A stretch of 64,000 bases of DNA. Source: Thermoplasmatales archaeon. GTDB lineage: Archaea; Thermoplasmatota; Thermoplasmata; Thermoplasmatales; Thermoplasmataceae. The position numbers were made by a program, and so were the translations under genes. Below, one piece after another: positions 22,146 through 37,771 of the stretch. The notes under the pieces were generated by a model. It saw only the letters and a program-made list of their open reading frames with translations. It had not been told where the DNA came from and did not search any database. Position 1 is the first letter of the stretch. Each line of letters opens with the position of its first letter. The stretch is taken from NCBI GenBank assembly GCA_026127925.1, contig JAJSLM010000003.1, forward strand, positions 62,001 through 126,000, written 5' to 3'.

Positions 22146-25100
22146 CTACTCCGGAATGACGGGGTCGTTAAAGCTTGGAATATCTTCCGCCATAGAAGTC
22201 AGAGCGTAGTCGAGCTGAGGATCAACGTTCTTGTAGTAGTCCAAAGGACTGTAATGCACCTCGACATCCGGGTCGACTCCGTAGTTTTCCACGCCATAGC
22301 CGGTTTCCTTGAACCAGAACGAGTACTCCGGCTGGGTCAAAACCGAACCATCAATCAACTTACGCCTTGGCGAAATTCCAACAACTCCGCCCCATGTGCG
22401 GACACCTATCAGTTTGCCCAGCTCCAGGGCTTTGAAAGAATAGCTGAATATATCTCCGTCGGATCCTGCATACTCATTTGTGATAGCGATCATGGGCCCG
22501 TTAACGGAGTTGGTGGGATAGGGATGGAGGCTCCCTCTTCTAGGTTTGTCATATCCCAATCTCCTGTTCAGGAGTTTCTCCAAAATCAGTTGAGAAACGA
22601 AGCCTCCGCCATTATATCTTACGTCTATTATCATGCCATCATACGCAAGTTCAGTGACATACAGCCGATAAAATTCATTAAGGCCCATCATTCCCATGTC
22701 AGGGATATGCACGTAACCGATCTTGCCATTCGATTTCTCGTGCACGTATTTTCTGTTCTGCTCGACCCATGAGCGGTACCTTACGTATCGATCATCATCA
22801 AGTACATTGGAATACAGAGAGAGCGTTTCAGAATCCTTTCGTTTTAGCTTGACCCTCAAGGATACCCCAGATTTGTTGTTTAAAGCCTCAAAAACGCTAG
22901 TTTTCTCTCCTATCTCTATCCCATCTATCTCCTGGATAACGTCGCCCTCTTTGGCAGGAATATTTGAAGTCAGAAATGGCGATTTCTCGTTTTCGTTAGA
23001 TGGATCGCCACAGTAAATCTTCTTGACAGAGTATTCACCATTATGATAGGAGAAATCCACAGCAAGTTTTCCGATCTTCGATGCTTCTATCTCGGTAGCA
23101 TGGCCAATGGTCTCGTAAGAGTGTGAGGTTCTGAATTCACCCTGCATCTCAGTTATAACGAAACTGAGATCGAATCTTGTCTGGCAATAAGGCAGTAGGT
23201 TTCTGTATTTATCATAGATGGTTGAGGATATCTTATCCGCTTTTTTCTCGTCCCAGTAGTTGTCTCTCGCTAGTTTCCAAGCCTCATCATACATCTGCCT
23301 GAATTCGTCTGTTCTGGAAGATCTTAGCTTCAAACGATCAATGTCAATGTTGATCTCCTCATCTGGTTTTTCAAGATCTATTAGGTATATTTTCAAGTCA
23401 TCCTTGCGAAACAGCATCTTTTTGAGGTCGTCAGAAAACCTGAAATCCACAACATCTTTCTTAATGTCCTTTGACTTCTTTTCCTTAAAGTCGTATTTCT
23501 GAAGAATTCCTTTTTCAGGCGTTCCATTGTAATAAGCTGAGAATTCTCCATGAGGTGGAACCTTGAACAGATACACGCCCTTCTCTGTCGGAATGATGGA
23601 TCTGTAGTCTGCCCTTTCCACATCTATGATTGATGACCTCAAGATAGCATTCTCCAGATCGTACTCTCCGGGTTCTCCGATAAACTTCTCTGCTACAGTT
23701 CGTGCGGGATTTGTATCGTTTAATTTTAGTGGTATGACAAATGGTTTAGATATGCTGCTATAGCTGAAATTGAAGATTAATTTGTCAGCATCTGGATCAA
23801 GGCTTCTGGTCGAGAGGTAAAAGAGATACCGCGATTTTGGGTCGAAAGCCGGTGCATAGTCATTGGAATTCCTTGATGTCATATCATACGTTTTCTCGGT
23901 TTTTAAATCATATAACCTTATTATCCTTTGAGAATAGCTACCAAGAAAAGTGGCCTTGATGGGGAAACTGTACGCTATGAATCTAGAATCCTGGGAGATC
24001 GAAAAGTCAAGTATCATCTCTTCCTCGCTCTTGTCTATTCTCTTCACTTTTTTGTCCTTTAGGTCCACAAGAAGAATTTCAAATCTATCATTTCCAACGA
24101 CAGCATATCTGCCATCAATAGAAGTCCTGAGAGAAAATATGTTACCAAAATCAAAAGGAATAGATTCCGTCTTATCGGTGTCTTTATCGTAAAGCTTCAA
24201 GACATCGCCATTGATTGTTCCGAAAACATAGAGAATGTTTTTTCCTGCAAATTGCGCATTCCTTATTCTCAAAGTATCAGGAATCTTCACCTGATAACTC
24301 AGGTAAGTGTCGCTGAGAAAACTCTGACCTCGGGAAACGAACAGGAAAATATCATCGTTTGCAACATGATAATCATCAAGATATTTCGAAGGGGTGCTGA
24401 ATAATGCATCATCCCTGTCGGAAACAGGGCCGATCTCAATTTCTTCTACAGAATCAGTTTCGGGATTGAAGAAAAATATCCTTCCGCCTTTTGAGAAAAC
24501 TATGTTTTTTCCATCTGTGTTCAAGTGTCTTGGATAGTAGTCGTCGAAATTCGTGTGCTTCTTGAGACCTTTGCCTTCTAGGTCTGTAGAATATATCTGC
24601 CCAGATCCTTCCAAATCAGAAACAAAGTATATCCTGTCACCAAAGAGAATTGGTGAAGATATGTGGTTGTTAAGATCGATGATTTTACTGAAACCAGTGT
24701 CGGTGTTCCCTGCCCATACTTTTCCTCTCGTTCCTCCGTGGTATTCTTTCCAGTGCAGCAGATCAAACGTATTACGTCCAATGAAAGTCTTATCATTACT
24801 ATAGATTATGTGAGTCGCAGGACCAAGGTTTAGAGGCTCAAAATCTCTCCCATCATCGACCACTCTGTAAAGGAATGTCATCGATCCAAATGGTGCGAAA
24901 GTGTCGGTGGAGATGATTATTGATCCATCCTTAGAAAAGCCTGCAACATCAGTAAACATCCTTCTTCCCACACTCTTTCCTGAAAAATATGTAAGGCGTT
25001 TTATCGATCCTGTCGAGAGATCTACAGTATATAGATCAGCGGAGTTCAAGGATTCACCGGTCATGGCCCTGAATACGATTTTAGTCCCACCGTCGTAGTA

Positions 25101-25241
25101 ACGCGCATTGTTAATTACGCCTACACCGGAAACCAGCTTTCTTTTCTCTTTGCTGACTATGTTATATTCCCAGAGATCATCGCAGCAAATGAATGCTATT
25201 CGATTGTCATACACATCCGGATTCAAAAATAGGTTCGACAT
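22146..25241 (-). CDS. tri: Tricorn protease
   Basis: 1031 residues (T. acidophilum enzyme 1071). It forms giant hexameric/icosahedral complexes that cut proteasome products into short peptides for tricorn-interacting aminopeptidases. The N-terminal seven-bladed and six-bladed propellers span about 1-640, followed by the C1, PDZ-like and C2 domains. Active-site residues are conserved: Ser-His in RTSHSYE (Ser745/His746 of the Thermoplasma enzyme), nucleophile Ser927 in NEYAGSDGD (Ser965) and Glu985 in GYGVENYG (Glu1023); the 58-residue Ser-Glu spacing is identical. A TATA-like AAATTAAATAC lies about 25 bases before the ATG. It converges on the oligopeptide transporter operon. Confidence 0.97.
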   Translation of the reverse strand: MSNLFLNPDVYDNRIAFICCDDLWEYNIVSKEKRKLVSGVGVINNARYYDGGTKIVFRAMTGESLNSADLYTVDLSTGSIKRLTYFSGKSVGRRMFTDVAGFSKDGSIIISTDTFAPFGSMTFLYRVVDDGRDFEPLNLGPATHIIYSNDKTFIGRNTFDLLHWKEYHGGTRGKVWAGNTDTGFSKIIDLNNHISSPILFGDRIYFVSDLEGSGQIYSTDLEGKGLKKHTNFDDYYPRHLNTDGKNIVFSKGGRIFFFNPETDSVEEIEIGPVSDRDDALFSTPSKYLDDYHVANDDIFLFVSRGQSFLSDTYLSYQVKIPDTLRIRNAQFAGKNILYVFGTINGDVLKLYDKDTDKTESIPFDFGNIFSLRTSIDGRYAVVGNDRFEILLVDLKDKKVKRIDKSEEEMILDFSISQDSRFIAYSFPIKATFLGSYSQRIIRLYDLKTEKTYDMTSRNSNDYAPAFDPKSRYLFYLSTRSLDPDADKLIFNFSYSSISKPFVIPLKLNDTNPARTVAEKFIGEPGEYDLENAILRSSIIDVERADYRSIIPTEKGVYLFKVPPHGEFSAYYNGTPEKGILQKYDFKEKKSKDIKKDVVDFRFSDDLKKMLFRKDDLKIYLIDLEKPDEEINIDIDRLKLRSSRTDEFRQMYDEAWKLARDNYWDEKKADKISSTIYDKYRNLLPYCQTRFDLSFVITEMQGEFRTSHSYETIGHATEIEASKIGKLAVDFSYHNGEYSVKKIYCGDPSNENEKSPFLTSNIPAKEGDVIQEIDGIEIGEKTSVFEALNNKSGVSLRVKLKRKDSETLSLYSNVLDDDRYVRYRSWVEQNRKYVHEKSNGKIGYVHIPDMGMMGLNEFYRLYVTELAYDGMIIDVRYNGGGFVSQLILEKLLNRRLGYDKPRRGSLHPYPTNSVNGPMIAITNEYAGSDGDIFSYSFKALELGKLIGVRTWGGVVGISPRRKLIDGSVLTQPEYSFWFKETGYGVENYGVDPDVEVHYSPLDYYKNVDPQLDYALTSMAEDIPSFNDPVIPE

Positions 25242-25476: not shown

Positions 25477-26457
25477 TCATTGACTCCTTTCGGTTCTCAC
25501 AGAGTAAACTTTCTTCCTCATATCCTTGAAGTCGTGAGATATTGTCACAACCTCAGTTTCAATTAACTGCTCAAGCGAATTCTGTACGGTTCTCCTGTTA
25601 AGTCCGGTTGCGTTCATTATCGATCCCTGTTCCATAGGTCCATAGGTCGAAAGTACGTGCATTACGAACCTGGCAGAAGGTGAAATTTTCAATTTCATCT
25701 GGGCAGGGAAGGCGCCAAAAGTGTCACCTCTAAGGCCGAGTCTTTGAGTTTCCAGTGCATAAAAGCTCCCAAAGGATATGTTTCCAAGATTTATATCTGG
25801 GCCAAGACGGAGGATTAATTGGGCCTGCTGAAATTCCAGTGGTGCCTCAAACATGAGCTTTCTCCTGTCTATGCTGGAAACGATTCGATCTACCCAGTCC
25901 CATTTTATTTCGCCATTGTTGTCGAATATTTCCACACCCTTTCCCGTCTCCCTCCCTTCAATAATGAGTGTGTCAGGATCAAAGTCCAGTGACCTTTCCA
26001 GCTTGTAAATGGTTTCTTCAAGCGAGAGTTGGTTACGGGGATTCTTTTTACCTATCTCTATATGCAATCTCATGTCGTTTGAATGTGCAAATTCTGAGAT
26101 TCGTTTTTTTGCATTTTCTGGCATTTCAATTATGCCTTCGCTAAGCTCGATTGTGTCGAATCCATTCCTTTTAAGCCTGTTCAAAATGTTATCTAAGCGG
26201 CCCTTAGAATAAGCTATTTCCAGCGTTGTTCCTCCATTTGAGACAAGAAAATTATGAGCTTTAAGATCTCCGACCCTCTTTACAAGAATGTTTTCGTCGA
26301 CGATAAGCGAAAGTCCCCATCCAATTTTCACAATTGTATTCTTGCTGTGCTCGGAGTAATAAAGGACCTCAGTAGGGAATGCGAGCCTGTCAATTATCAT
26401 CGTGACCGTGTCTTTTATTGTTGAACGGTCAATGAAATCGGCAATCGAGGATTTCAT
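25477..26457 (-). CDS. Phosphosulfolactate synthase-like (ComA) barrel fused to a C-terminal winged helix
   Basis: 326 residues. Residues 1-250 resemble phosphosulfolactate synthase, which adds sulfite to phosphoenolpyruvate: KIGWGLSLIV, SNGGTTLEIA, GFDTIELSEGIIEMP, IEIGKKNP, IIEGRETGKGVEIF, MFEAPLEFQQAQLILRLGPDINLGNI. Residues about 255-322 form a winged helix-turn-helix (SARFVMHVLSTYGPMEQGSIM, TGLNRRTVQNSLEQLIE), absent from standard ComA, which is about 250 residues. The gene is divergent from APS reductase and ATP sulfurylase with a 138-base shared spacer. It could be an enzyme that removes sulfite, a sulfite/PEP-responsive regulator of the sulfate genes, or both. ComA is known from coenzyme M synthesis; no other coenzyme M gene is in view. 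Confidence 0.82.
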   Translation of the reverse strand: MKSSIADFIDRSTIKDTVTMIIDRLAFPTEVLYYSEHSKNTIVKIGWGLSLIVDENILVKRVGDLKAHNFLVSNGGTTLEIAYSKGRLDNILNRLKRNGFDTIELSEGIIEMPENAKKRISEFAHSNDMRLHIEIGKKNPRNQLSLEETIYKLERSLDFDPDTLIIEGRETGKGVEIFDNNGEIKWDWVDRIVSSIDRRKLMFEAPLEFQQAQLILRLGPDINLGNISFGSFYALETQRLGLRGDTFGAFPAQMKLKISPSARFVMHVLSTYGPMEQGSIMNATGLNRRTVQNSLEQLIETEVVTISHDFKDMRKKVYSVRTERSQ

Positions 26458-26595
26458 GCTCCGATATCTAATAGAACAATATGAAATTTCCTCATACGCT
26501 TTGCGAAAATAATAGGAATATATTACACATTGTTTTGGTGATCTTCATGCATGGAAAACGATATTGTTAGGGTCCTGATTAAACGCTGAAAACTA

Positions 26596-27282
26596 ATGGA
26601 CGAAGATGAAAAATATCTAAGCATAAAACAGCTTTTGGAAAAATCTATGGATAGATTCGACAACAATATAGTTTTTTTATCAAGTTTTGGTGCAGAGGAC
26701 ATGGTAGTACTACATGTCATAGCTTCAGAGGATCTAAATATACCGATCCATACAATAGATACAGGAAGGCTATTCCAGGAGACATATAACCTGATAGAGG
26801 ACGTCAGAAACAAATACAAAGTACAAGTAAAGATATTCTTTCCGGATAATTCTAAACTTGAGAGTTTTACATCGTTGAAAGGTCCGAATTCATTCTATCT
26901 CTCAAGGGAAAACAGACATGAATGCTGTGAAATAAGAAAAGTGGAGCCTTTAGGTCGCGCCATTGAGGGTTATAGTGCCTGGATCACCGGGGTGAGGTCA
27001 AACCAAACTGAGGTTCGTAGGTTGATGAACGAAATTGAACCGGATCCATTGCACCACGGGATATACAAGGTAAATCCGTTACTTCTATGGACTTTTCCGG
27101 AAGTGGTTTCTTTCCTGCATAAATATGACGTGCCCTATAATCACCTGATAGATCATGGATTTGTCAGCATAGGGTGTGAACCGTGTACAAGGGCCGTAAA
27201 ACCGGGAGAAGATGAGAGAGCCGGGCGATGGTGGTGGGAAGAGGGAATAAAGGAATGCGGTCTTCATACTGCGAGGGAATAG
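26596..27282 (+). CDS. cysH: Assimilatory APS reductase (CysH family, iron-sulfur type)
   Basis: 228 residues. Reduces adenosine 5'-phosphosulfate to sulfite. The PP-loop start VFLSSFGAEDMVV lies near residue 26. The 4Fe-4S ligands of the APS-type enzyme are all present: Cys110-Cys111 (HECCEIRK) and Cys194/Cys197 (IGCEPC). The catalytic Cys221 is in KECGLH at the C-terminus. The CC...CxxC set points to APS rather than PAPS as substrate, which fits the lack of an APS kinase gene nearby. It is followed two bases later by the ATP sulfurylase start and lies divergent from the ComA-winged-helix gene. Confidence 0.92.
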   Translation: MDEDEKYLSIKQLLEKSMDRFDNNIVFLSSFGAEDMVVLHVIASEDLNIPIHTIDTGRLFQETYNLIEDVRNKYKVQVKIFFPDNSKLESFTSLKGPNSFYLSRENRHECCEIRKVEPLGRAIEGYSAWITGVRSNQTEVRRLMNEIEPDPLHHGIYKVNPLLLWTFPEVVSFLHKYDVPYNHLIDHGFVSIGCEPCTRAVKPGEDERAGRWWWEEGIKECGLHTARE

Positions 27283-27284
27283 AC

Positions 27285-28376
27285 TTGAGTAGTGAAGTGA
27301 ACAGTAAAAAGTCTGCTCTCTTAACTGATTCCGAGAGGAGGTCTAATTCTTTAGAGATTTCAAAATATTTCGCTATGGATGCGGAGAAAATAGGAACAGG
27401 GGCCTACAAACCCCTTGGAGGATTCATGGATGAGAACGAAATAAATTCTGTTCTAACTCTTGATCATCTCCCGGATGGAAAAACATGGACGGTGCCCATA
27501 TTCCTTCACGTGGAGAATGAACAAAATTTTAAGGGAGGAGACGAGATATTTCTCGAATACAGGGGAGAGACGTTTGCAAGTATGCGACTAGAAAGTATTT
27601 TTAAACCTGATGTTAGAGATATTGCAAGCAGACTGTATATGACCGAGGATAAAAGTCATCCAGGTGTTAAACAGATGCGTTCATTCAAGGGAAAATTTTT
27701 ATCAGGCAAACTAACGCTGCTTAGCAGCCTTGAAAGCCTTGGTGGCGATCCTACACCAGAAGAGGTAAAGAAATATTTCAGAGAACAAGGATGGAAAACG
27801 ATTGCAGGATATCAGACCAGAAACCCACCGCATATCGCGCATGAGTACATTCAAAGAATTGCTCTGGAGATCATGGATGGCCTATTTATAAACCCAGTCG
27901 TTGGTGAATTAAAACCTGGCGATTTTGACGAAAACACTATTATGGAATCATACCGTTACATAACTGATAATTTCTACCCCCATGACCGAGTTTTGCTCCG
28001 TCCTCTGCACGTTGCAATGCGTTATGCCGGTCCAAAGGCTGCAGCATTTTTCGCCATAATAAGAAGAAATTATGGATGCACGCACTTTTTGATAGGCAGG
28101 GATATGGCAGGTGTTGGAAAGTATTATTCACCTTACGCAGCGCAGGAGTTCGTATCTTCGCTTGATCTAGGAATCAACATTATACCGTTCAAAGAAATAT
28201 ATTATTGCAAAAAGTGTGCAACGGTAGTATCAGAGCGTAGTTGCAGGCATGGAATTCCTGAAGAATCTGCACTGAGCATGTCTAGGATTAGGGACATGAT
28301 AAGAGCAGGGAAGCGCCCTCCAGACGAAGTGATGCGAAAGGAGATAGTGGACATTCTTACCAAAGCTTTACAATAA
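27285..28376 (+). CDS. sat: ATP sulfurylase (sulfate adenylyltransferase)
   Basis: 363 residues from TTG 27285. Makes APS from sulfate and ATP. The QTRNPPHIAHEYIQR motif binds sulfate and ATP (family QxRNPxHxxH). The second motif reads IGRDMAGVGKYY, where most relatives have GRDHAGxG, so the conserved His is Met here. A late Cys set (YYCKKC...C) forms the zinc ribbon seen in archaeal enzymes. TTG 27285 is preferred because GAGGGA (27273-27278) is six bases upstream and the gene then starts two bases after the cysH stop; the longer frame from 27228 would overlap cysH. It is cotranscribed with cysH. Confidence 0.9.
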   Translation: MSSEVNSKKSALLTDSERRSNSLEISKYFAMDAEKIGTGAYKPLGGFMDENEINSVLTLDHLPDGKTWTVPIFLHVENEQNFKGGDEIFLEYRGETFASMRLESIFKPDVRDIASRLYMTEDKSHPGVKQMRSFKGKFLSGKLTLLSSLESLGGDPTPEEVKKYFREQGWKTIAGYQTRNPPHIAHEYIQRIALEIMDGLFINPVVGELKPGDFDENTIMESYRYITDNFYPHDRVLLRPLHVAMRYAGPKAAAFFAIIRRNYGCTHFLIGRDMAGVGKYYSPYAAQEFVSSLDLGINIIPFKEIYYCKKCATVVSERSCRHGIPEESALSMSRIRDMIRAGKRPPDEVMRKEIVDILTKALQ

Positions 28377-28448: not shown

Positions 28449-29675
28449 TTAGTCTGAGGCCTTACATGGGTATTTTCCTGAGAGAAGATCATCGTATATC
28501 TTCAATAGGTTTTTCAAATGGCTATCTGGATTCAGAATTTCCCTAGCGTCTTTATTTCCTTGTTTTCCCATTTTCTCCCGTTCAGAAGCGTGATCCATCA
28601 TATACTCTATAGCGTCCGCGAGGTTACCTATATCGTACGGCTTCACAAGAATGCCGTTGACGCAATCATGTACAAGTTCTGATACTCCCCCTATATCAGA
28701 TGCTATAACTGGCTTTACCCTCACCATAGACTCGCCCGCAGATAGCGGTATGTTGTCAAACATAATGGTAGGTATAACCGAAAATTGAATATCAGAATAG
28801 AACTGCTCCTTCTCATTTCCAGAAATCTGCCCGAGCATCTCAACGTTCTCTTCCAAGTGATTTTGATCTATGAGACTTTTGACGAATGCAGAATATTTTC
28901 CCGTTCCGGCTATGAGCAACTTAAATGATCTCCCTCTTCTTTTCATGAGTTCACACGCTAGGAGCAACTGTTTCATCCCCTTTTCCGGAACTATCCTGCC
29001 TATGTAGCCAAAAACTCCATCCTTTCCCAGCTTAGATACATGATCAGGAAATCGGATAAAAGACCTCAACACCTTTGCATTCTCTATGCTGAACGATCTG
29101 AGGTACCTGGTGAGGGCTTCGCTTGGAGCAACAAAGAGATTTATGCGCTTAGACAAATGCTTAATAAACTCACGGTAACGCATCATCTCGTATGGTAAAT
29201 TTACTTCGACCTTGCAACCTGTAAATGCGCACCTTGGTTTTATTCCACCTTCACATATCCTGCCATCTGGTATTACAAGAGTCGAAAGTGGGCAAATGAG
29301 ATCGGCATCGTGTGCAGTGAAGATTACAGGCCTGTCCATATTTTTAGTAAATTCAGTGATGGATGAATATCCTATCCGGAATCTGTGTAGGTGGATGATG
29401 TCCGGATTGAAGGTTTTTTTAACTTCCTCTATGCGGTTGAGTAGGGGTTCGTTAGGAATAGAATCGTTCATGAATCTTCTGATTCTTGAGCTATCGATTT
29501 TTATTACTGTGCTCTCCTTTCCATAGTCGAATTTCGTGTTCGAACTTGTAATTTCAATAGTGTATGTATCTACCCTGGTCTTGGCGAGCATACCATTAAC
29601 TTCCCGGATGTACTGTTCCACTCCTCCAGGAGCATCCGTTCTGGCAGTTATCCTCAAAACTCTGATCGAATCCAT
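28449..29675 (-). CDS. Family 4 glycosyltransferase
   Basis: 408 residues with the two-domain GT-B layout. N-terminal ITARTDAPGGVEQYIREVN carries the acceptor-side glycine loop. The C-terminal half has FGYIGRIVPEKGMKQLLLA near residue 222 and the donor-binding GESMVRVKPVIASDIGGVSELV near residue 320. It probably transfers a hexose from a nucleotide sugar to a lipid or protein glycan. It is the left boundary of a glycosyltransferase-rich region, on the strand opposite to sat, converging with it. The sugar and acceptor are unknown. Confidence 0.88.
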   Translation of the reverse strand: MDSIRVLRITARTDAPGGVEQYIREVNGMLAKTRVDTYTIEITSSNTKFDYGKESTVIKIDSSRIRRFMNDSIPNEPLLNRIEEVKKTFNPDIIHLHRFRIGYSSITEFTKNMDRPVIFTAHDADLICPLSTLVIPDGRICEGGIKPRCAFTGCKVEVNLPYEMMRYREFIKHLSKRINLFVAPSEALTRYLRSFSIENAKVLRSFIRFPDHVSKLGKDGVFGYIGRIVPEKGMKQLLLACELMKRRGRSFKLLIAGTGKYSAFVKSLIDQNHLEENVEMLGQISGNEKEQFYSDIQFSVIPTIMFDNIPLSAGESMVRVKPVIASDIGGVSELVHDCVNGILVKPYDIGNLADAIEYMMDHASEREKMGKQGNKDAREILNPDSHLKNLLKIYDDLLSGKYPCKASD

Positions 29676-29943
29676 CTACGATGAAAGAGATACGAAGTAA
29701 ATTAATACTACCATGAGTTTTTAAATAATAAAATCGGCAATCGTCACAAATTACCTGGAAAGCCCAAAGAAAGTGAAATAATTTTCGATAACATTAGGCT
29801 CTAACGTAAAATTTACTTAAAGCGTTCTAACTTTGACCAAATAGCTATAATGAAGCTTCACGTTATAGCAAGCTCTGATCCCGTTATTAGACAATGCTGA
29901 GGATTCACAATATTTAAACGTCCCAGGCTATTACACAATAATA

Positions 29944-31053
29944 ATGCGAAAAAAGAAGTCACGTGATATTCAATCGATCTTGGACCTCGATAACTCACCT
30001 ATCGTTGCCTCAAGGGAAGACATAGTAAAATCTCTTTCCAGTGTGCTTGATAACAATGATATAGGCGAGATAAGAAGGAAAGTGAAGTGGATAATTTCAA
30101 GAATCGAGGAAATCAAACCAGTCTTTAATCAGGACATAGGCCATAATCCCTTAGAAAGCGCATTAGAGGTAAACGTGTCGGATCTGGAACAAGTCGTTAA
30201 TTCGTTCACTGCGGAGCGAGCCAAGCATTACGTTAAAAGGATAATTAAGGGGATTACGGAGCAGAGAACATCAAAATTCAATGACATTAATCTTAATCGC
30301 TGGAAGGAATATGATTACATAATCACTGACAGTTTGTGGACTTTTGACAAACGGGAACGAGGAGAAGGACACAATGCCAAATATTGGGGGAACTTTATTC
30401 CTCAGATACCGCATCAGCTGCTTCTGCGATTTACGAAGAGGGGCGATTGGGTTCTCGATCCTTTCATGGGAAGCGGGACAACACTGATTGAGTGCAGGAG
30501 ACTCGGCCGGAATTCAGTCGGCATCGATCTGGAAGATAAGGCTATTGAGCAGGCTCAGGAAAATCTCAAAAAAACCAAGGATACTTATAGTTCTAAAACT
30601 AAGATTATCATGTCAGATAATCTTGACGTGGACTATCTGGCATTAGTCGATGAGTTGGGTATCAAATCATTTCAGTTTGTTTTATTGCATCCTCCGTATT
30701 GGGACATAATAAAATTCAGTGAGAATGACAGGAACTTCTCAAACTTTGCCTCTATGGAGCTTTTTCTGGACGGTATGAGTCGATTAGCAAAACTTCTTCG
30801 ACCGGTGTTAGGGGATGAGAGGTACCTTGCATTGGTTATCGGCGATAAATACAGCGAGGGGAAGTGGGTACCTCTTGGTTTTTATTCCATGCAGAGATTT
30901 CTTGATGCGGGATTTGGCTTGAAATCTATAATAGTAAAGAATTATGACATGACGCGAGGAAAAATGAATTCTTCTGAGTTGTGGCGCTACAGGGCTTTAG
31001 TAGGCGGTTTCTATGTCTTCAAACATGAATATATTTTCCTGTTTCAAAAATGA
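29944..31053 (+). CDS. DNA methyltransferase (N4-cytosine/N6-adenine type), solitary
   Basis: 369 residues. S-adenosylmethionine motif I is DPFMGSGTT (residues 173-181), followed by the GIDLEDKAIEQA acidic loop near 193. The catalytic motif is HPPYWD at 250-255, matching the (S/N/D)PPY(W/F) signature of exocyclic amino-group DNA methylases. Residues 1-110 form a mainly helical, charged N-terminal domain without a recognised family, possibly target recognition. No restriction endonuclease gene is next to it, so it is an orphan methylase or a regulator of DNA processes. A TATA-like TATTTAAAC lies about 30 bases before ATG 29944. Confidence 0.82.
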   Translation: MRKKKSRDIQSILDLDNSPIVASREDIVKSLSSVLDNNDIGEIRRKVKWIISRIEEIKPVFNQDIGHNPLESALEVNVSDLEQVVNSFTAERAKHYVKRIIKGITEQRTSKFNDINLNRWKEYDYIITDSLWTFDKRERGEGHNAKYWGNFIPQIPHQLLLRFTKRGDWVLDPFMGSGTTLIECRRLGRNSVGIDLEDKAIEQAQENLKKTKDTYSSKTKIIMSDNLDVDYLALVDELGIKSFQFVLLHPPYWDIIKFSENDRNFSNFASMELFLDGMSRLAKLLRPVLGDERYLALVIGDKYSEGKWVPLGFYSMQRFLDAGFGLKSIIVKNYDMTRGKMNSSELWRYRALVGGFYVFKHEYIFLFQK

Positions 31054-31274
31054 ACGTGTCATTAATAGCTTCTTGTCATGTGGCAATACTGTGTGATTGG
31101 TTAGATACTCTCTGTGACTGGTTAATGCCATAAAGCTTTAATTTTCCACGCCCAAATACAAAACCGATCCTTGTCCCCCCATCAAATATTTTAGGTGGGC
31201 TTCAATACATTCCATCGTGTGAATTTGGCCCCATTCTAAGAGGAACATGTGGATAACTTAGCAGGTATTAAGAT

Positions 31275-32225
31275 TCAGGAGTGTATCATTTCTTCAATAC
31301 TGCTGGCGATTGTCATATTCTTAATTTCGTCTTGTTTAATCTTTAGTATATCCGGTTTTGATAGCCCAACGAATCTTTCCAGAATCTTTGGATACGATCC
31401 GTGAACGCTTTCATTGTACGGTTCCCAGTTTGGTTCCTCATCAGGAGAAAATTCTTTTAGATTCTCTCTTATTGATTTATAATCACCATACTCTTCAACA
31501 AGTTTATCATTAATAAGATATCCATCATATTGCTTATATATGGCTTTTTCAGATGGCATCACATACTTAAGGTGTATCCCACCAAAGGAATTGAGAACAA
31601 TTCTCCTAAAATATTTCGGTGGGGAAAATCCTTCAACAAATTTTTTGGAATCTAGATTAGCTGATCTTGGCCTGTAAAGTTCCTTGGTGGTATTCGAGAA
31701 GATCCATCCTTCAACATCAATAGGTTTTGTGACGACCTTAGTTAGATCATTATATGGCGTCAAGAGGGGAAAATACGCAACTTTTTTAACTTTTATAGAC
31801 TTGACAAGATTGATAATTTCACTCAAGCTCCCGGTTCCATTATCTAACGCAACCATGTCTGCGTCCCAATGGACTATGATCTCTTTGCTCGATTCACTCT
31901 TGGCTCTTCGTCTAGCCTGAGTTATTCTCATATCTTCGAAAAAGTACTTTATTACGATCTTATCCTTTAGTTTGTTGACAATCATATTATTATATTTGAT
32001 ATAATCAGCATCGTCAGATGAATCTATAATCACAATTTCGTCGGCAAGATGATGTACTGACACAAGAGACTCAAGAAGCCATGGGTCATTTTTGGTGATG
32101 ATAGTAAAAGAGACACCTTTTTCAAAATAATGGTCATGATAAAGCGATAACGGCAGGTTTGATAGACATATCCTCAAAAAATGCCCTGAAAAAGTTTCTA
32201 TACGATGTAACCAACTATTGGCCAT
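31275..32225 (-). CDS. Family 2 glycosyltransferase
   Basis: 316 residues. A GT-A fold is indicated by GVSFTIITKNDPWLLESLVSV near residue 34, the EIVIIDSSDDADY segment near 65, and HWDADMVALDNG near 125 as the DxD metal site. The first about 33 residues are an extra N-terminal extension of mixed character; the true start may be internal but no better start codon was found. It lies alone between the DNA methylase and a degraded interval, and is one of the glycan assembly enzymes of this region. Donor and acceptor are unknown. Confidence 0.8.
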   Translation of the reverse strand: MANSWLHRIETFSGHFLRICLSNLPLSLYHDHYFEKGVSFTIITKNDPWLLESLVSVHHLADEIVIIDSSDDADYIKYNNMIVNKLKDKIVIKYFFEDMRITQARRRAKSESSKEIIVHWDADMVALDNGTGSLSEIINLVKSIKVKKVAYFPLLTPYNDLTKVVTKPIDVEGWIFSNTTKELYRPRSANLDSKKFVEGFSPPKYFRRIVLNSFGGIHLKYVMPSEKAIYKQYDGYLINDKLVEEYGDYKSIRENLKEFSPDEEPNWEPYNESVHGSYPKILERFVGLSKPDILKIKQDEIKNMTIASSIEEMIHS

Positions 32226-32722
32226 GAATGAATTGGTTATGACTGTAATACTAAAATAATTTCCGATCTATCAATATTCATAATTTTTAAGAATTATGCT
32301 ACTAACTTTGCTCGAATTATATCTTGTGTTCTTCAAATGTAGAAGAGAGAGCAAGCATATTCTTCTGGTTATTTCTATACATGTACGGGGTTGCGAAAAA
32401 TATTGAAACGAAACGAGCTACTTCATAGGTCATTCTATGGTTTTTCCAAAACTGAGAAATGCATTCTATGGGAGATCTATATTACCTCTAAATTATCATG
32501 CTCCGCTCTCCAACTTGCCGATATCAGAAAGTGCCATTCCAATTTCATTTTTTCGGTTATACGGTCACTTTCAAAATCAAGCAAATCTTTCTGATGGATG
32601 TTTAAAGTACAAAGCAGTTTAAGTCGCGTATTTACCTTGCAGGCTTTGACAAAGGGTATTCCGATGCTCAAAGGCTCACCACACCGTGAAAATATATAAG
32701 TAAAAGACATCCATGTTTCGCT
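32226..32722. other. Intergenic region without recognisable gene
   Basis: Short open frames occur on both strands (32391-32594 plus, 32477-32710 minus) but none resembles a known family and they overlap each other. It may contain the remains of a lost gene between two divergent glycosyltransferases. The right end has a TATA-like AAAATATATA (about 32690-32699) for the next gene. Confidence 0.45.
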
Positions 32723-33463
32723 ATGCCAATTAAGTACTCAATTTGCACTACCAGCTATAGATCAGTCTCGTTAGTTGAAGACTTCATTGATCCGTTGCTT
32801 TCTTTAGGTGATAATTACGAAATTGTTGTAGTAGACAACGATTCTGATGATGGAACATTTGAAAAACTGAAAGCATACCCGGAACGGGTATTAGCTATCA
32901 GCAAAAAGTGCACAAGAGGAAAAGGGTTTCAAACGGCAATAGATCTCTCACATGGTGAAATAATAATTCATATAGAGTTTGATGTCGGGTACGTGGGTTT
33001 ATACAGGGCTGTAGAGTACTATGAAAAGTCAGATACGAGTAAAATTTTTTATTACATCATCCCAGGGAAAAAATGTAACGCCACTCTTTACGTCGGCAGA
33101 AGAGAACTCTTTAAGAAGGTAGGTAATTTTCCTGACCTCAACTATGCTGAAGATCTTTATTTTAATAAAAAGGCTAATAAACTCAATCTCTTAAAAGTTG
33201 TATCACTAGATGTCCCTATCAAATGTTTGGAGATTAAGGGAATGGGCTCCGGAAGTGAAGCAAGGTATGAGAACAACGTATTCAGGCGGATCCAAAGACG
33301 AGTAATAGCAACGAGAGACATACTGTTTGTCAATAATATTGGTTACTCCGAACTGATGGTTAAGTATAAACTTAAGGGCTCAAAGGCTATTTTCGTAGGA
33401 TTACCTGAATACCTGCTCGGAAGACTCTTAAGATTTACAATAAAGGATCCGCCTTTGGACTAA
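32723..33463 (+). CDS. Family 2 glycosyltransferase
   Basis: 246 residues, single GT-A domain. SICTTSYRSVSLVEDFIDPL near residue 4, EIVVVDNDSDDGTFEKL near 36 and a metal-site region HIEFDVGY near 79 (E-x-D in place of the usual D-x-D) are visible. The end is Leu/Arg-rich without a membrane segment. TATA-like sequence lies about 28 bases upstream, so it has its own leaderless promoter. Adjacent genes on both sides are other glycosyltransferases, one of them degraded. Confidence 0.82.
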   Translation: MPIKYSICTTSYRSVSLVEDFIDPLLSLGDNYEIVVVDNDSDDGTFEKLKAYPERVLAISKKCTRGKGFQTAIDLSHGEIIIHIEFDVGYVGLYRAVEYYEKSDTSKIFYYIIPGKKCNATLYVGRRELFKKVGNFPDLNYAEDLYFNKKANKLNLLKVVSLDVPIKCLEIKGMGSGSEARYENNVFRRIQRRVIATRDILFVNNIGYSELMVKYKLKGSKAIFVGLPEYLLGRLLRFTIKDPPLD

Positions 33464-33533
33464 TTTAAATTCTTATAGGAACATCTGATTAATGCTCTTT
33501 TTAGTTAAACTTATTTCTTTTGGACTTTGTAAG

Positions 33534-34290
33534 CTAAGGTAACTTATTATTTTTCATTTGATCGAGCACAAATGAATTAATGTGTAATCGGAATTGCTCG
33601 AAAGAGTATCTTGCTGTTGAATCTAATATTTGTTTCTGAAAAGCTTGTGTAGTTTTCATTGCCTCATCTAGTACTTGTATCAGTTCTTCATTATTTGAAT
33701 ATCCAAATCCAAATTTCCCCATTCCTATGATATCTATCCAAGGTCCACCTGATTTTGGAACAACAGGAACTAAACCATGTGACATGGCTTCGACAATGCT
33801 AATACCAAAATGTTCTTTTCTGTTTGTATGCAAGAAAACTTTAGACGTGAGGAATAGATTTCTTTTTTCTTTGTCTGTCGGACTAGGCACTATATCGACA
33901 TTGTCCGTCTTTTCTCTGACCAATTTTTTTGTAATATTCCCGATCACCTTCATTTACTGTACCCGCAATTATGAAATTATCATCATACCTTTTGGCCGTT
34001 TCTAAAACAGTTTCTAATTTTTTCTCTTTATTTATTCTCTGAAAGGACAATATCACGTTTTCTTTTCTGGAACACGTATTGTGACTTCGAAAACTTGAAT
34101 GAAACACTTCTATTACTCTATGGATTAAACAAAGTTCTCTAAATAGTGGATTGACTGAATTCTTTGTATATCTGGAGTCAACGATAAATTTGTATACTTG
34201 AACATTTTTTTAGTGTTAGTTGGTTTCATTACGTCATAGTTCTGAGCACGAAAATGTCTATTGTATCTACAATTAAGTAAAAAAAATTAA
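33534..34290 (-). pseudogene. Degraded family 4 glycosyltransferase
   Basis: Only the C-terminal half of a GT-B enzyme survives. Reading from high to low coordinates, one frame gives KKMFKYTN, the next FIVDSRYTKNSVNPLF and ENVILSFQRINKEKKLETVL, and a third VREKTDNVDIVPSPTDKEKR and KEHFGISIVEAMSHGLVPVV (donor-binding E-x7-E region). The second shift falls in an A7 tract (T run at 33924-33930 on the plus strand): removing one base restores a continuous product. A further shift is near 34200. The N-terminal domain is missing. The left limit is the stop; the right limit is approximate. Confidence 0.75.
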
Positions 34291-34324
34291 TTATGCACGT
34301 TCTATAACATACTTAGTTACTCAA

Positions 34325-35311
34325 ATGAAAATTTCAGTTATAGTCACAGCTTACCAAAGAAGGCAATATATCTTGAAAGCCTTACAGTCATTAGAAGAGC
34401 AGAACATTTCGAAGGATAAATATGAAGTCATTATAGTTAAGGACTTTGAAGATAAGGATATAGATTCTATTATAGGATCCTTTGGATACAAGAGTATCCT
34501 AATGCTAAGTGAAAGTACACTCGGAGAGTTTATTTATTCTGGCATTGTCAATTCTGAGGGTGAGATCATTTGCTTTTTGGATGATGATGATATATTTTCT
34601 ATGGAAAAATTATCGTTAATTTATGAAAAGTTTTCGGGCAATAACGTTTCTCTTATTAAGAACAACATATTTTTCATAGACACAAGCGAAAATCCCATTA
34701 AAGAAGATAAGCTAAAAATAGCGTCTCAAATAGGCATGAGACTGCCCATTATACGCGACGCCGTCATAGCCCCTTCACAGTTTAGAAAACGCTTAGGCTA
34801 CCTCAGTGATCGAGGTGTGGATTTCAACTTGAGCTCAATGTCTATATTAAGGGGAATAATGAAGGAGGGCGATTTAAAATACCTCAGAGAAAGCGTGGAT
34901 ATTTCCCCGGACACTTTTTTCTTCTTATTGGCTTTGAAATCGGATAAGAGCATCTTAGTGCTAAAGAATAAACTAACCGGTTTTAGAATTCACAAGAGTA
35001 GTATATCCAGAAAGATAGGAAATGACATTGAGTCAGCAAGATCTAGAATTGATATTATGGAACATTTAGTCCATCAGTATTGCGGTTTTATTCAATATTT
35101 TGGTTGGGATTATAGCGAACATATACAAGCAAGAGTTTATAAGCAAAGAATAGGGATATTGCGGGAAATAAAAAAATATGGTTTTAATGATATAAAAAGC
35201 AGAGTCTCTTTGCTAGAAGCATTAAAATTTGCGTTCAAGAACAAAGAAATAATCCTAATCCTTATGATCATATATATCAGTTTACCGATAAGTGAAGGAA
35301 TGAACAGTTAA
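34325..35311 (+). CDS. Family 2 glycosyltransferase
   Basis: 328 residues. The N-terminal GT-A domain has ISVIVTAYQRRQYILKALQSL, EVIIVKDFEDKDID and FLDDDDIFSMEKL (metal site, near residue 81). A C-terminal region of about 120 residues is helical and ends with a hydrophobic stretch (about 300-322, ILILMIIYISLPI) that could anchor it to the membrane. It closely resembles, in layout and motifs, the minus-strand enzyme at 36794-37771, so the two look like paralogues flanking a degraded GT4 gene. Confidence 0.83.
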   Translation: MKISVIVTAYQRRQYILKALQSLEEQNISKDKYEVIIVKDFEDKDIDSIIGSFGYKSILMLSESTLGEFIYSGIVNSEGEIICFLDDDDIFSMEKLSLIYEKFSGNNVSLIKNNIFFIDTSENPIKEDKLKIASQIGMRLPIIRDAVIAPSQFRKRLGYLSDRGVDFNLSSMSILRGIMKEGDLKYLRESVDISPDTFFFLLALKSDKSILVLKNKLTGFRIHKSSISRKIGNDIESARSRIDIMEHLVHQYCGFIQYFGWDYSEHIQARVYKQRIGILREIKKYGFNDIKSRVSLLEALKFAFKNKEIILILMIIYISLPISEGMNS

Positions 35312-35538
35312 GATTCTAGCTAGAAATTCCATTTTCAAATTTTCGTCGACATTTGCAGTTCTATTAAAACGATGTGACAACTAGAAATTAAATTGTGGGA
35401 ATTATCTCTTCTGGAGGATTGTTTATGATGCAATTAGCACTGCCCAAAACGGAATCTCTTAGGTCGCACGCAATAGTAATCATTGAAATCTGGAATATAT
35501 CACTCGCATCACATTATAAATGAGAAGTATTTATTATT

Positions 35539-36641
35539 CTAGGTTTTGTTTTTAGCCCCGGCTATACGTCCATATGGCATGTTCATTTTATTTTTGAAAA
35601 CATCAAAAGAATACTTTTCTGATTGTGTTAAACCTTTCTCTCTCTAAGGATGTTACTAGAGTTTAGTGCTTCTTTCACTCCATTAAAATAAGAATCAACA
35701 TCAAAAGGATCTATATATATTGCAGCATCTCCACTTATTTCTCTCAAAACTGGTATATCGGAGGCAACAACAGGAAGCCTTGCTCTCAACGCTTCCGATA
35801 CCGGTAGTCCTTGGCCTTCTTCAAGGCTCGGAAACAAAAGTACATCGCAAGCGTTATAGATTTTATTTAGAGTAACATCATCAATACCGTTGAAATTTAT
35901 GCTGTCTCCAATGCCCTCACCAACCCTGACAATCCTATATTTGGTGTCCATCCTTTTACTCAATTCCCTAGTTAACTTCAGATTTTTTCTTAAAACATTA
36001 GTAGAAACGCTGAGTAATAATACTTTATCAGTTGGAAGATTAAGTTCCCTTCTTAATTTTTCTTTTGCTTCAGTAAGTTCCTTGAAAATATTGGAAATAG
36101 GATGGTGTATTGTTTCGATCTTTCCTCTATATCCATATCTTATGAGTGAATTCTTGACATAATCAGTGTTAGTAGTAATGTATGGAGACCTTAGACAGTT
36201 GGGATCGAAAATGAATTTTCCGAGTATTCTATGTAGCTTTTGAATTCTTATGTTGTCATTGCCGTTAAAATAAAGGTCGGTTTTGAAAAGTGAAAATGGA
36301 TTATCGTGCACTGTAAAAAGTGTTTTGGCTTCATAGTTAAACATAACATCCCTCTGGGACGCATAGTGAAATATGGTGTGATCTGTATCTAGACCCTTAA
36401 GATAATTGGTCAAATCGCTATGGGCATATCTTGGAAATAAAACATTCAAAAAACTCTTAGAAAACTTACCATAGAAATCAGTGCCTGAATGAGATTCGAT
36501 CTATTTTACTCTATTATCTACAACATTGATCTGCGTTGAAGCACCAACTTCAGACAAGAAGGTTACATACCGATAAATGGCAGTGTGAGGATGCCAAAAG
36601 TTAATTATTACGTGCTGAAAATTTTTAACGTAAGTTTCCAT
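35539..36641 (-). pseudogene. Family 4 glycosyltransferase with an in-frame amber stop and a GA-repeat frameshift
   Basis: The largest open part is 35628-36449 (273 codons: TVHDNPFSLFK, LLLSVSTNVLRKNLKLTREL, DVLLFPSLEEGQGLPVSEAL, RLPVVASDIPVLREI). The same frame continues upstream through TAG at 36501-36503 to ATG 36641, giving 46 more codons (INFWHPHTAIYRYVTFL) and HSGTDFYGKF after the stop. At the 3' end the open frame stops early after LRERKV, but dropping one GA from the GAGAGAGA run near 35640 yields REKGLTQSEKYSFDVFKNKM, a normal GT4 tail, to a stop at 35539. The two lesions suggest an inactive gene. Confidence 0.72.
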
Positions 36642-36793
36642 GGATTCCAAATATTCAAAGTAGATAAAAAAAATTCCTGACTAGTGATTAGAGCGTTAAT
36701 TTCGTGGAACGATTAATGAGAATGATGCAAAGCATTGTGGAACAATTATATACAATAGATAAGTTCATATAATATGTTAGCACATTTTAAAGA

Positions 36794-37771
36794 TCAAACA
36801 TGATAAATCAATTTAATTATCGCCCTTCTTAAGAAAGTGGGTGAGCTCAAAACTGCAATCCTTGGAATTTCATAAATATCGTGTTCCTTGAGATATAGCT
36901 TGTAATCTTCCAATCCAATGCTATATTTTTTAGTTAAACTCCAAAAATTATAGGCAATTTTTAGATTCGTTAATCTCGTTTTTAGATAATTGGCGAATAA
37001 TGAGCCGTTGGACATTTTTGCCATTCTGTTGTGCGCGACTAAACTTTTTTCAATAAATTCCAACTTTTTTTGCAAAAGCGAATCAAAATTATTGCGTATA
37101 AGGGCGCTGGTTTGATTTTCATGGAGTCTGTAATAGGTTAATTTACGATTGTCTATATACATACTTTTGTCAGATAATAAAGCGCATAGATATAGGAATC
37201 TATCAATGTTGGTCTCTGGCAACTCAATCTGTTTTTCGCTCTGATTAAGCCAGGGCTCGATTATATTCTTCCGGACTGAAATGGAAGAATTGTTTTCATA
37301 AGCTAGCATATGTTCAAGCCAGTATATTTTTTTGAGTTTGTCGGAATTTTTTATCAACAACGTCGTTTGGTTGGGTGGAGTAACTGTCTTTTCCTTGAAC
37401 ACTCGGCCTGCCATAAAAGGCTCAAAATTATTGTGATAATAAGAAATTTCAGTATTTTTAAAAGTTTCATTAACTATTTTCAATTTATCCGGTTCGAAGA
37501 GATCGTCGTCAAGAAACGATAAAATTTGGCCGCTTGCATTTCGTAATCCGAATTCAAGGAAAAAATGCTCAGATCCGTCTTTCGTAAAGTACTTTATATT
37601 GTGTTTATCAAGAAATTTGTCTATACCCTTGTCGTGAAAGTTCTTTACGACAAGTATTTCATAATATTGCTTTGGGAGCGTCTGATTTAAGGCGCTGCTA
37701 ACAGCGTCAATCAGAAATTCTTTTCTATTGTAGCATGTTATTAACACTGTAATAAGGGGCTTATCGGGCAT
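36794..37771 (-). CDS. Family 2 glycosyltransferase
   Basis: 325 residues. Motifs: LITVLITCYNRKEFLIDAVSSAL near residue 5, YEILVVKNFHDKGIDKFL, and LSFLDDDLFEPDKL near residue 87 as the metal-binding site. The helical C-terminal part (about 200-325) has no membrane segment except a weakly hydrophobic end. Resembles the enzyme at 34325-35311 (shared VKxFxDKxID and FLDDD patterns), suggesting gene duplication within this cluster. It lies 111 bases from the DUF2079 gene, upstream on the same strand. Confidence 0.83.
   Translation of the reverse strand: MPDKPLITVLITCYNRKEFLIDAVSSALNQTLPKQYYEILVVKNFHDKGIDKFLDKHNIKYFTKDGSEHFFLEFGLRNASGQILSFLDDDLFEPDKLKIVNETFKNTEISYYHNNFEPFMAGRVFKEKTVTPPNQTTLLIKNSDKLKKIYWLEHMLAYENNSSISVRKNIIEPWLNQSEKQIELPETNIDRFLYLCALLSDKSMYIDNRKLTYYRLHENQTSALIRNNFDSLLQKKLEFIEKSLVAHNRMAKMSNGSLFANYLKTRLTNLKIAYNFWSLTKKYSIGLEDYKLYLKEHDIYEIPRIAVLSSPTFLRRAIIKLIYHV

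Follow-up and report, generated by a model that had tools for sequence, protein, structure and literature searches.

Phosphosulfolactate synthase (ComA) uses two substrates, sulfite and phosphoenolpyruvate (PEP). Representatives of this (2R)-phospho-3-sulfolactate synthase family are ComA of M. jannaschii (1QWG) and YitD of B. subtilis (1U83). A metabolic enzyme joined to a helix-turn-helix (HTH) domain is known as RbkR (TA1064) of Thermoplasma, a riboflavin kinase with an HTH, which is mentioned as a bifunctional gene regulator/enzyme in a passage of PMC8305020 (its ref. 236). Sulfite-binding regulators are described from bacteria, where YeiE and FinR belong to the LysR type (PMC12880088). 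The protein considered here, a ComA-like barrel fused to a C-terminal winged helix (wHTH), resembles ComA in its barrel fold and in most invariant residues, including K137, but differs from it by the additional winged helix, by a score below the NCBIfam equivalog cut-off and by frequent replacement of E237 and G161. A further difference is that no sulfopyruvate decarboxylase exceeds the cut-off in the family's genomes, and the fusion gene is divergent from cysH instead of being part of a coenzyme M operon. RbkR and the fusion occur in the same lineage and both combine a metabolic enzyme with an HTH; however, enzyme family and pathway are different, and in the fusion the wHTH is C-terminal and its DNA binding is predicted. 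With YeiE/FinR the fusion would share the response to sulfite and the neighbouring sulfur genes as targets, both of which are only proposed for the fusion, whereas the bacterial regulators consist of an N-terminal wHTH and a LysR effector domain and have no enzyme barrel. MarR/TrmB-type regulators are similar in the topology of the C-terminal domain and in a palindromic (here candidate) operator, but in the fusion a ComA barrel takes the place of the MarR or TrmB effector region. Literature searches found neither a description of a ComA-HTH fusion nor an archaeal regulator of sulfate assimilation of such a kind.

The window, i.e. the whole analysed stretch of 64,000 nucleotides from a Thermoplasmatales archaeon, harbors the following features:

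25477..26457, minus strand: ComA-wHTH fusion gene, 326 aa (Pfam/NCBIfam, AlphaFold, Foldseek, conservation in 85 of 400 genomes); barrel at residues ~17-247, winged helix at residues ~258-320
26458..26595, no strand: divergent intergenic region, 138 bp (sequence)
26478..26498, no strand: second candidate operator AATATGAAATTTCCTCATACG, weaker (7.4 bits in the window), near the fusion promoter
26511..26531, no strand: main candidate operator AATAGGAATATATTACACATT (PWM 16.8 bits; held-out p=0.005)
26596..27282, plus strand: cysH, APS-type reductase, sulfite-forming (PF01507, 6.7e-45; NF002537 above cut-off)
27228..28376, plus strand: sat, ATP sulfurylase (PF01747, 2e-79; NF003166 above cut-off)

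The spacer of 138 bases that the initial annotation had placed between the fusion and cysH-sat has exactly this length. CysH carries the CC...CxxC cysteines expected of [4Fe-4S] APS reductases and reaches 234.8 bits with TIGR02055 (cut-off 235.3). Read from its first ATG, sat shares 55 bp with cysH (27228-27288), and the true start may be located further downstream.

The same annotation had read the protein as a ComA-like barrel joined to a winged helix and had suggested a structure prediction, and both domains are borne out. Residues 17-245 match Pfam ComA with E=6.8e-56 and 189.9 bits (gathering score 25.2), and among solved structures M. jannaschii ComA (1qwg) comes closest (Foldseek E=1.5e-21, TM 0.85 by target length). 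The NCBIfam equivalog TIGR03849 is missed with 197.8 bits (cut-off 280). For residues 258-320 of the window protein, Pfam yields matches to several HTH families, all of them sub-threshold (TrmB, 18.9 vs 25.6 bits; MarR, 12.3 vs 24.6 bits), and MarR_2 matches the C-terminal domain in 27 of 35 family members (best 2.5e-7). In the AlphaFold model (mean pLDDT 88.5) the barrel is followed by helices at 260-272, 277-284 and 288-300 and by strands at 304-308 and 316-320 that form a two-stranded wing; by this model, the C-terminal domain is a winged helix. R288, T290 and Q292, counted as its recognition residues, are invariant among the fusions. As in the RbkR/BirA-like wHTH factors, an enzyme domain and a DNA-binding domain are thus combined in a single polypeptide.

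A search for the fusion and its divergent pairing across relatives, which the initial annotation had proposed, detects the fusion in 85 of 400 sampled genomes of the class. Inspection of 60 related loci showed cysH as the adjacent, divergent gene in 38, often with sat next to it; no other gene is a recurrent neighbour. Because of this recurrence, fusion and arrangement are not attributable to chance. Within the window's family (f1), the fusion is found in 31 sampled genomes and cysH in 30; all 30 cysH genomes also encode the fusion, mostly in divergent orientation, and 28 listed genomes have neither gene (Fisher p~5e-16, uncorrected for phylogeny). The sole f1 genome with the fusion but without cysH (G143) harbors both fusion and motif. 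Co-occurrence and motif statistics in general are incompletely corrected for relatedness, some genomes are incomplete, and the start codons of some homologues are guesses. A clear standalone ComA was not seen among the 400 genomes of the class, in which one 265-aa frame lacks the HTH part (G338) and a few further ComA matches are cut; standalone ComAs exist elsewhere in the phylum (family f38). One fusion was found outside the class (L125, family f53). Since the in-class fusions group together with a support of 0.995, and of 0.905 when L125 is included, the fusion probably arose once, as judged from the sequence tree. A location of the homologues consistently away from sulfur genes, named beforehand as an argument against the regulatory reading, applies solely to the type-B clade (family f15), where the fusion is mostly not situated beside cysH, with the genus g89 as exception (L077, L078, L083). 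Half of the fusion promoters and most of the unlinked cysH promoters of this clade carry one common palindrome. Many of the type-B fusions (L074-L093) reside in genomes that have sat and in which cysH was not detected. In the binned genome G258, fusion and cysH occur in triplicate, on L035, L069 and one more contig, and the copies differ in type; they represent either mixed lineages or true paralogues.

A de novo palindrome search in 32 type-A spacers resulted in WATAYGNAAAWTTTNCRTATW, a palindrome of ~21 bp (log-likelihood 135.7 vs 38-44 for shuffled sequences). When position weight matrices (PWMs) are trained only on loci whose fusion is <60% identical to that of the locus under test, p<=0.05 is reached by 24 of 36 held-out spacers (20 at p<=0.01), and 12 miss this level. 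The spacers outscore 81 further intergenic regions taken from these loci (p=2e-14), and also the 25 divergent ones (p=2e-8). The main site of the window is centered between the two start codons, 64 bp off the ATG of the fusion and 75 bp off that of cysH. Under the independently derived f15 PWM it takes rank 2 among 118 positions, and the second site rank 1. The latter, which scores 13.1 bits in a sister genome (L034), is 33 bp (about three helical turns) apart from the main site; a distance of 32-33 bp is the commonest spacing of site pairs (9 pairs). In many loci, some 64 bp separate the main site from the start of the fusion and 67-75 bp from that of cysH, which places it upstream of the expected TATA boxes, provided that the messages are leaderless. 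Elsewhere, sites reach into the region close to the start of one of the two genes; the position relative to the start codons thus varies, and either repression or activation may apply.

The type-B clade offers a separate view of the motif. An EM motif search in the upstream regions of unlinked f15 cysH genes alone gave CGCAGaatCTGCG; also obtained there was CGCAGAWTCTGCG, a GC-rich version of the palindrome that lies ahead of most cysH genes and of half the fusion genes in this family. Without refitting, the f15 cysH PWM matches 10 of 20 type-B fusion upstream regions at p<=0.05 (6 at <=0.01), several of them at the same position. Its center coincides with that of the type-A PWM in 18 of the 32 type-A spacers, where chance would give 0.3; a formal p for this coincidence is overstated, as the sequences are related and palindromes resemble each other. 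The columns of both PWMs correlate with 0.74 in register; once they are shifted out of register, the correlation is close to 0. An earlier type-B motif, GTTC...GAAC, was discarded, since it originated from conserved coding sequence within the searched stretch. Upstream of ten cysH genes from fusion-less genomes (f10, f19, f22), the type-A PWM has no match and the type-B PWM one. The palindrome is also absent upstream of sat (f15), SQD1 and comB-like genes, so that a wider regulon was rejected; among the tested genes, candidate operators are confined to the fusion and cysH. By this comparative evidence, the candidate operator is found upstream of the factor's own gene and of a pathway gene, as in the RbkR/BirA-like factors. 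Type-B fusions of genus g51 (L086, L088, L089) show no significant site upstream of their own genes, although the unlinked cysH there has one, and in G356 (f15, 72% complete) the palindrome is present at cysH with no fusion detected; both cases leave room for another regulator.

The explanation preferred here, with a probability of roughly 0.72, is that the fusion represents an autoregulated transcription factor derived from phosphosulfolactate synthase, which would bind sulfite and/or PEP, possibly still be catalytic, and control the supply of sulfite. We infer DNA binding, the identity of the ligand and, in either direction, the sign of regulation and the retention of catalysis as parts of this explanation. 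The winged helix would bind the ~21-bp palindrome in the promoter region common to the fusion and cysH-sat or, in relatives, the one upstream of unlinked cysH, and the protein would thereby control sulfate-to-sulfite reduction along with its own gene. The barrel most likely binds sulfite and/or PEP, because the ComA active site is kept. Its occupancy, or turnover to phosphosulfolactate, might report sulfite and adjust cysH-sat, such that toxic sulfite would be made no faster than it is used. For this, a ComA oligomer would need some way of offering two winged helices to a palindrome, a point that counts against the model. The sulfite-responsive switch built from an enzyme, as postulated in the initial annotation, is strongly backed, on comparative grounds, by the conserved divergent arrangement, the near-perfect co-occurrence with cysH and the conserved palindrome even at unlinked cysH; the sulfite response itself is a proposal derived from sequence comparison. 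The fusion would be a specific candidate regulator, with a candidate operator, for archaeal sulfate assimilation, and would add an enzyme family that was apparently recruited as sensor.

The comparison of barrel residues is based on 21 positions that are invariant in 13 canonical ComAs (M. jannaschii numbering). Nearly all of them are maintained: 18 of the 21 recur in 55 or more of the 56 fusions, among them K137, E79, E103, E133, E168, E171 and E205, whereas G161 and E237 are commonly replaced and S172 is often Thr. These intact catalytic residues suit an enzyme as well as a sensor, and the reading that the fusion captures excess sulfite stays viable because of them; the protein may act as such a sink. 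A closely related alternative is a bifunctional protein, a phosphosulfolactate synthase still active in disposing of surplus sulfite as phosphosulfolactate while also regulating cysH-sat; it overlaps with the preferred explanation and differs in that catalysis would be physiologically important. Catalysis may be kept alongside regulation by analogy to RbkR, and this alternative is a serious contender at somewhat less than even odds. The conserved lysine and glutamates argue for it, as does a ComB-family phosphatase encoded in 57 of 61 family genomes, but such genes are equally present in fusion-less genomes and lack the operator, and ComB was therefore set aside as uninformative. The replaced canonical invariants, the missed equivalog cut-off and the absence of the next enzyme of the coenzyme M route (see below) also count against an important catalytic role. 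The same holds for the divergent out-of-class fusion L125, from one incomplete genome, in which E133, N227 and the R170-S172 region are gone but the wHTH persists; its sequence suggests that the function retained can be DNA binding. L125 adjoins an ornithine carbamoyltransferase-like ORF and is possibly a sensor-only version.

An intact active site also implies that any substrate or product could be the effector. The fusion might accordingly sense another metabolite (PEP or energy state, APS, or sulfolactate) and report carbon or product status instead of sulfite, all the more as PEP is a ComA substrate besides sulfite. This is possible but rather unlikely, given the specific linkage to the sulfite-forming cysH and the restriction of candidate operators, among the genes tested, to the fusion and cysH.

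The window genome (98% complete) encodes no siroheme sulfite reductase domain (NIR_SIR), which is missing from 23 of 25 f1 cysH genomes tested, the window's included, and present in two. Sulfopyruvate decarboxylase (ComDE) exceeds the cut-off in none of 31 family genomes, but does so in two control genomes; coenzyme M biosynthesis, which had not been expected from the outset, was hence rejected as the role of the fusion. A homologue of UDP-sulfoquinovose synthase (SQD1/Agl3) is encoded in the window genome (G000:C1:10247-11416, L109; E=2.6e-112 to Arabidopsis SQD1, 1qrr) and in 55 of 61 family genomes. Agl3 of Sulfolobus converts UDP-glucose and sulfite to UDP-sulfoquinovose (PMC4388408), and the N-glycan of Thermoplasma is stated, in a passage of PMC12448462 citing Vinogradov 2012, to contain a C-sulfonated sugar. 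Since the genome has neither sulfite reductase nor ComDE but a UDP-sulfoquinovose synthase, sulfite is probably made for sulfonated surface glycans by way of this enzyme, the best candidate consumer. Sulfate reduction would then have an unusual end, namely sulfite without a reductase in most genomes, and sulfate uptake would be linked to the sulfonated sugars of acidophile cell surfaces. A more far-reaching formulation regards the fusion as a catalytically competent phosphosulfolactate synthase that is sulfite sensor and sink at once and controls a Sat-CysH route lacking a sulfite reductase, with sulfite destined for sulfosugars and not for cysteine; such an undescribed archaeal factor family is put forward tentatively.

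The absence of sulfite reductase would also suit an enzyme of purely biosynthetic role whose C-terminal helical domain is incidental, where Sat, CysH, ComA and the ComB-family protein together would yield sulfolactate or a related sulfonate and the palindrome would belong to another regulator. The conserved active site fits this scheme, but a wHTH in nearly every in-class ComA homologue (the exceptions being cut or short frames), its invariant recognition residues, the divergent rather than co-directional arrangement and a palindrome that goes with the fusion and is missing at the cysH of families without it make it improbable. That the neighbourhood is devoid of regulatory meaning, the palindrome being a promoter element and the linkage inherited synteny, is the least probable reading. 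In its favor, promoters of archaea are rich in A and T, and the second site, near -31 of the fusion, lies where a TATA box would usually be found. Against it speak the held-out contrast with other divergent intergenic regions, the GC-rich palindrome at unlinked f15 cysH and the lack of the palindrome at cysH where families have no fusion.

Two further observations concern the flanks of the locus. A tricorn-protease-like gene (22146-25241) is located downstream of the fusion and accompanies it in only few relatives. On the other side, a run of glycosyltransferase-like genes (28449-37771) adjoins cysH-sat, a neighbourhood that is not kept in most relatives; it could be linked to the use of sulfite in sulfosugars.
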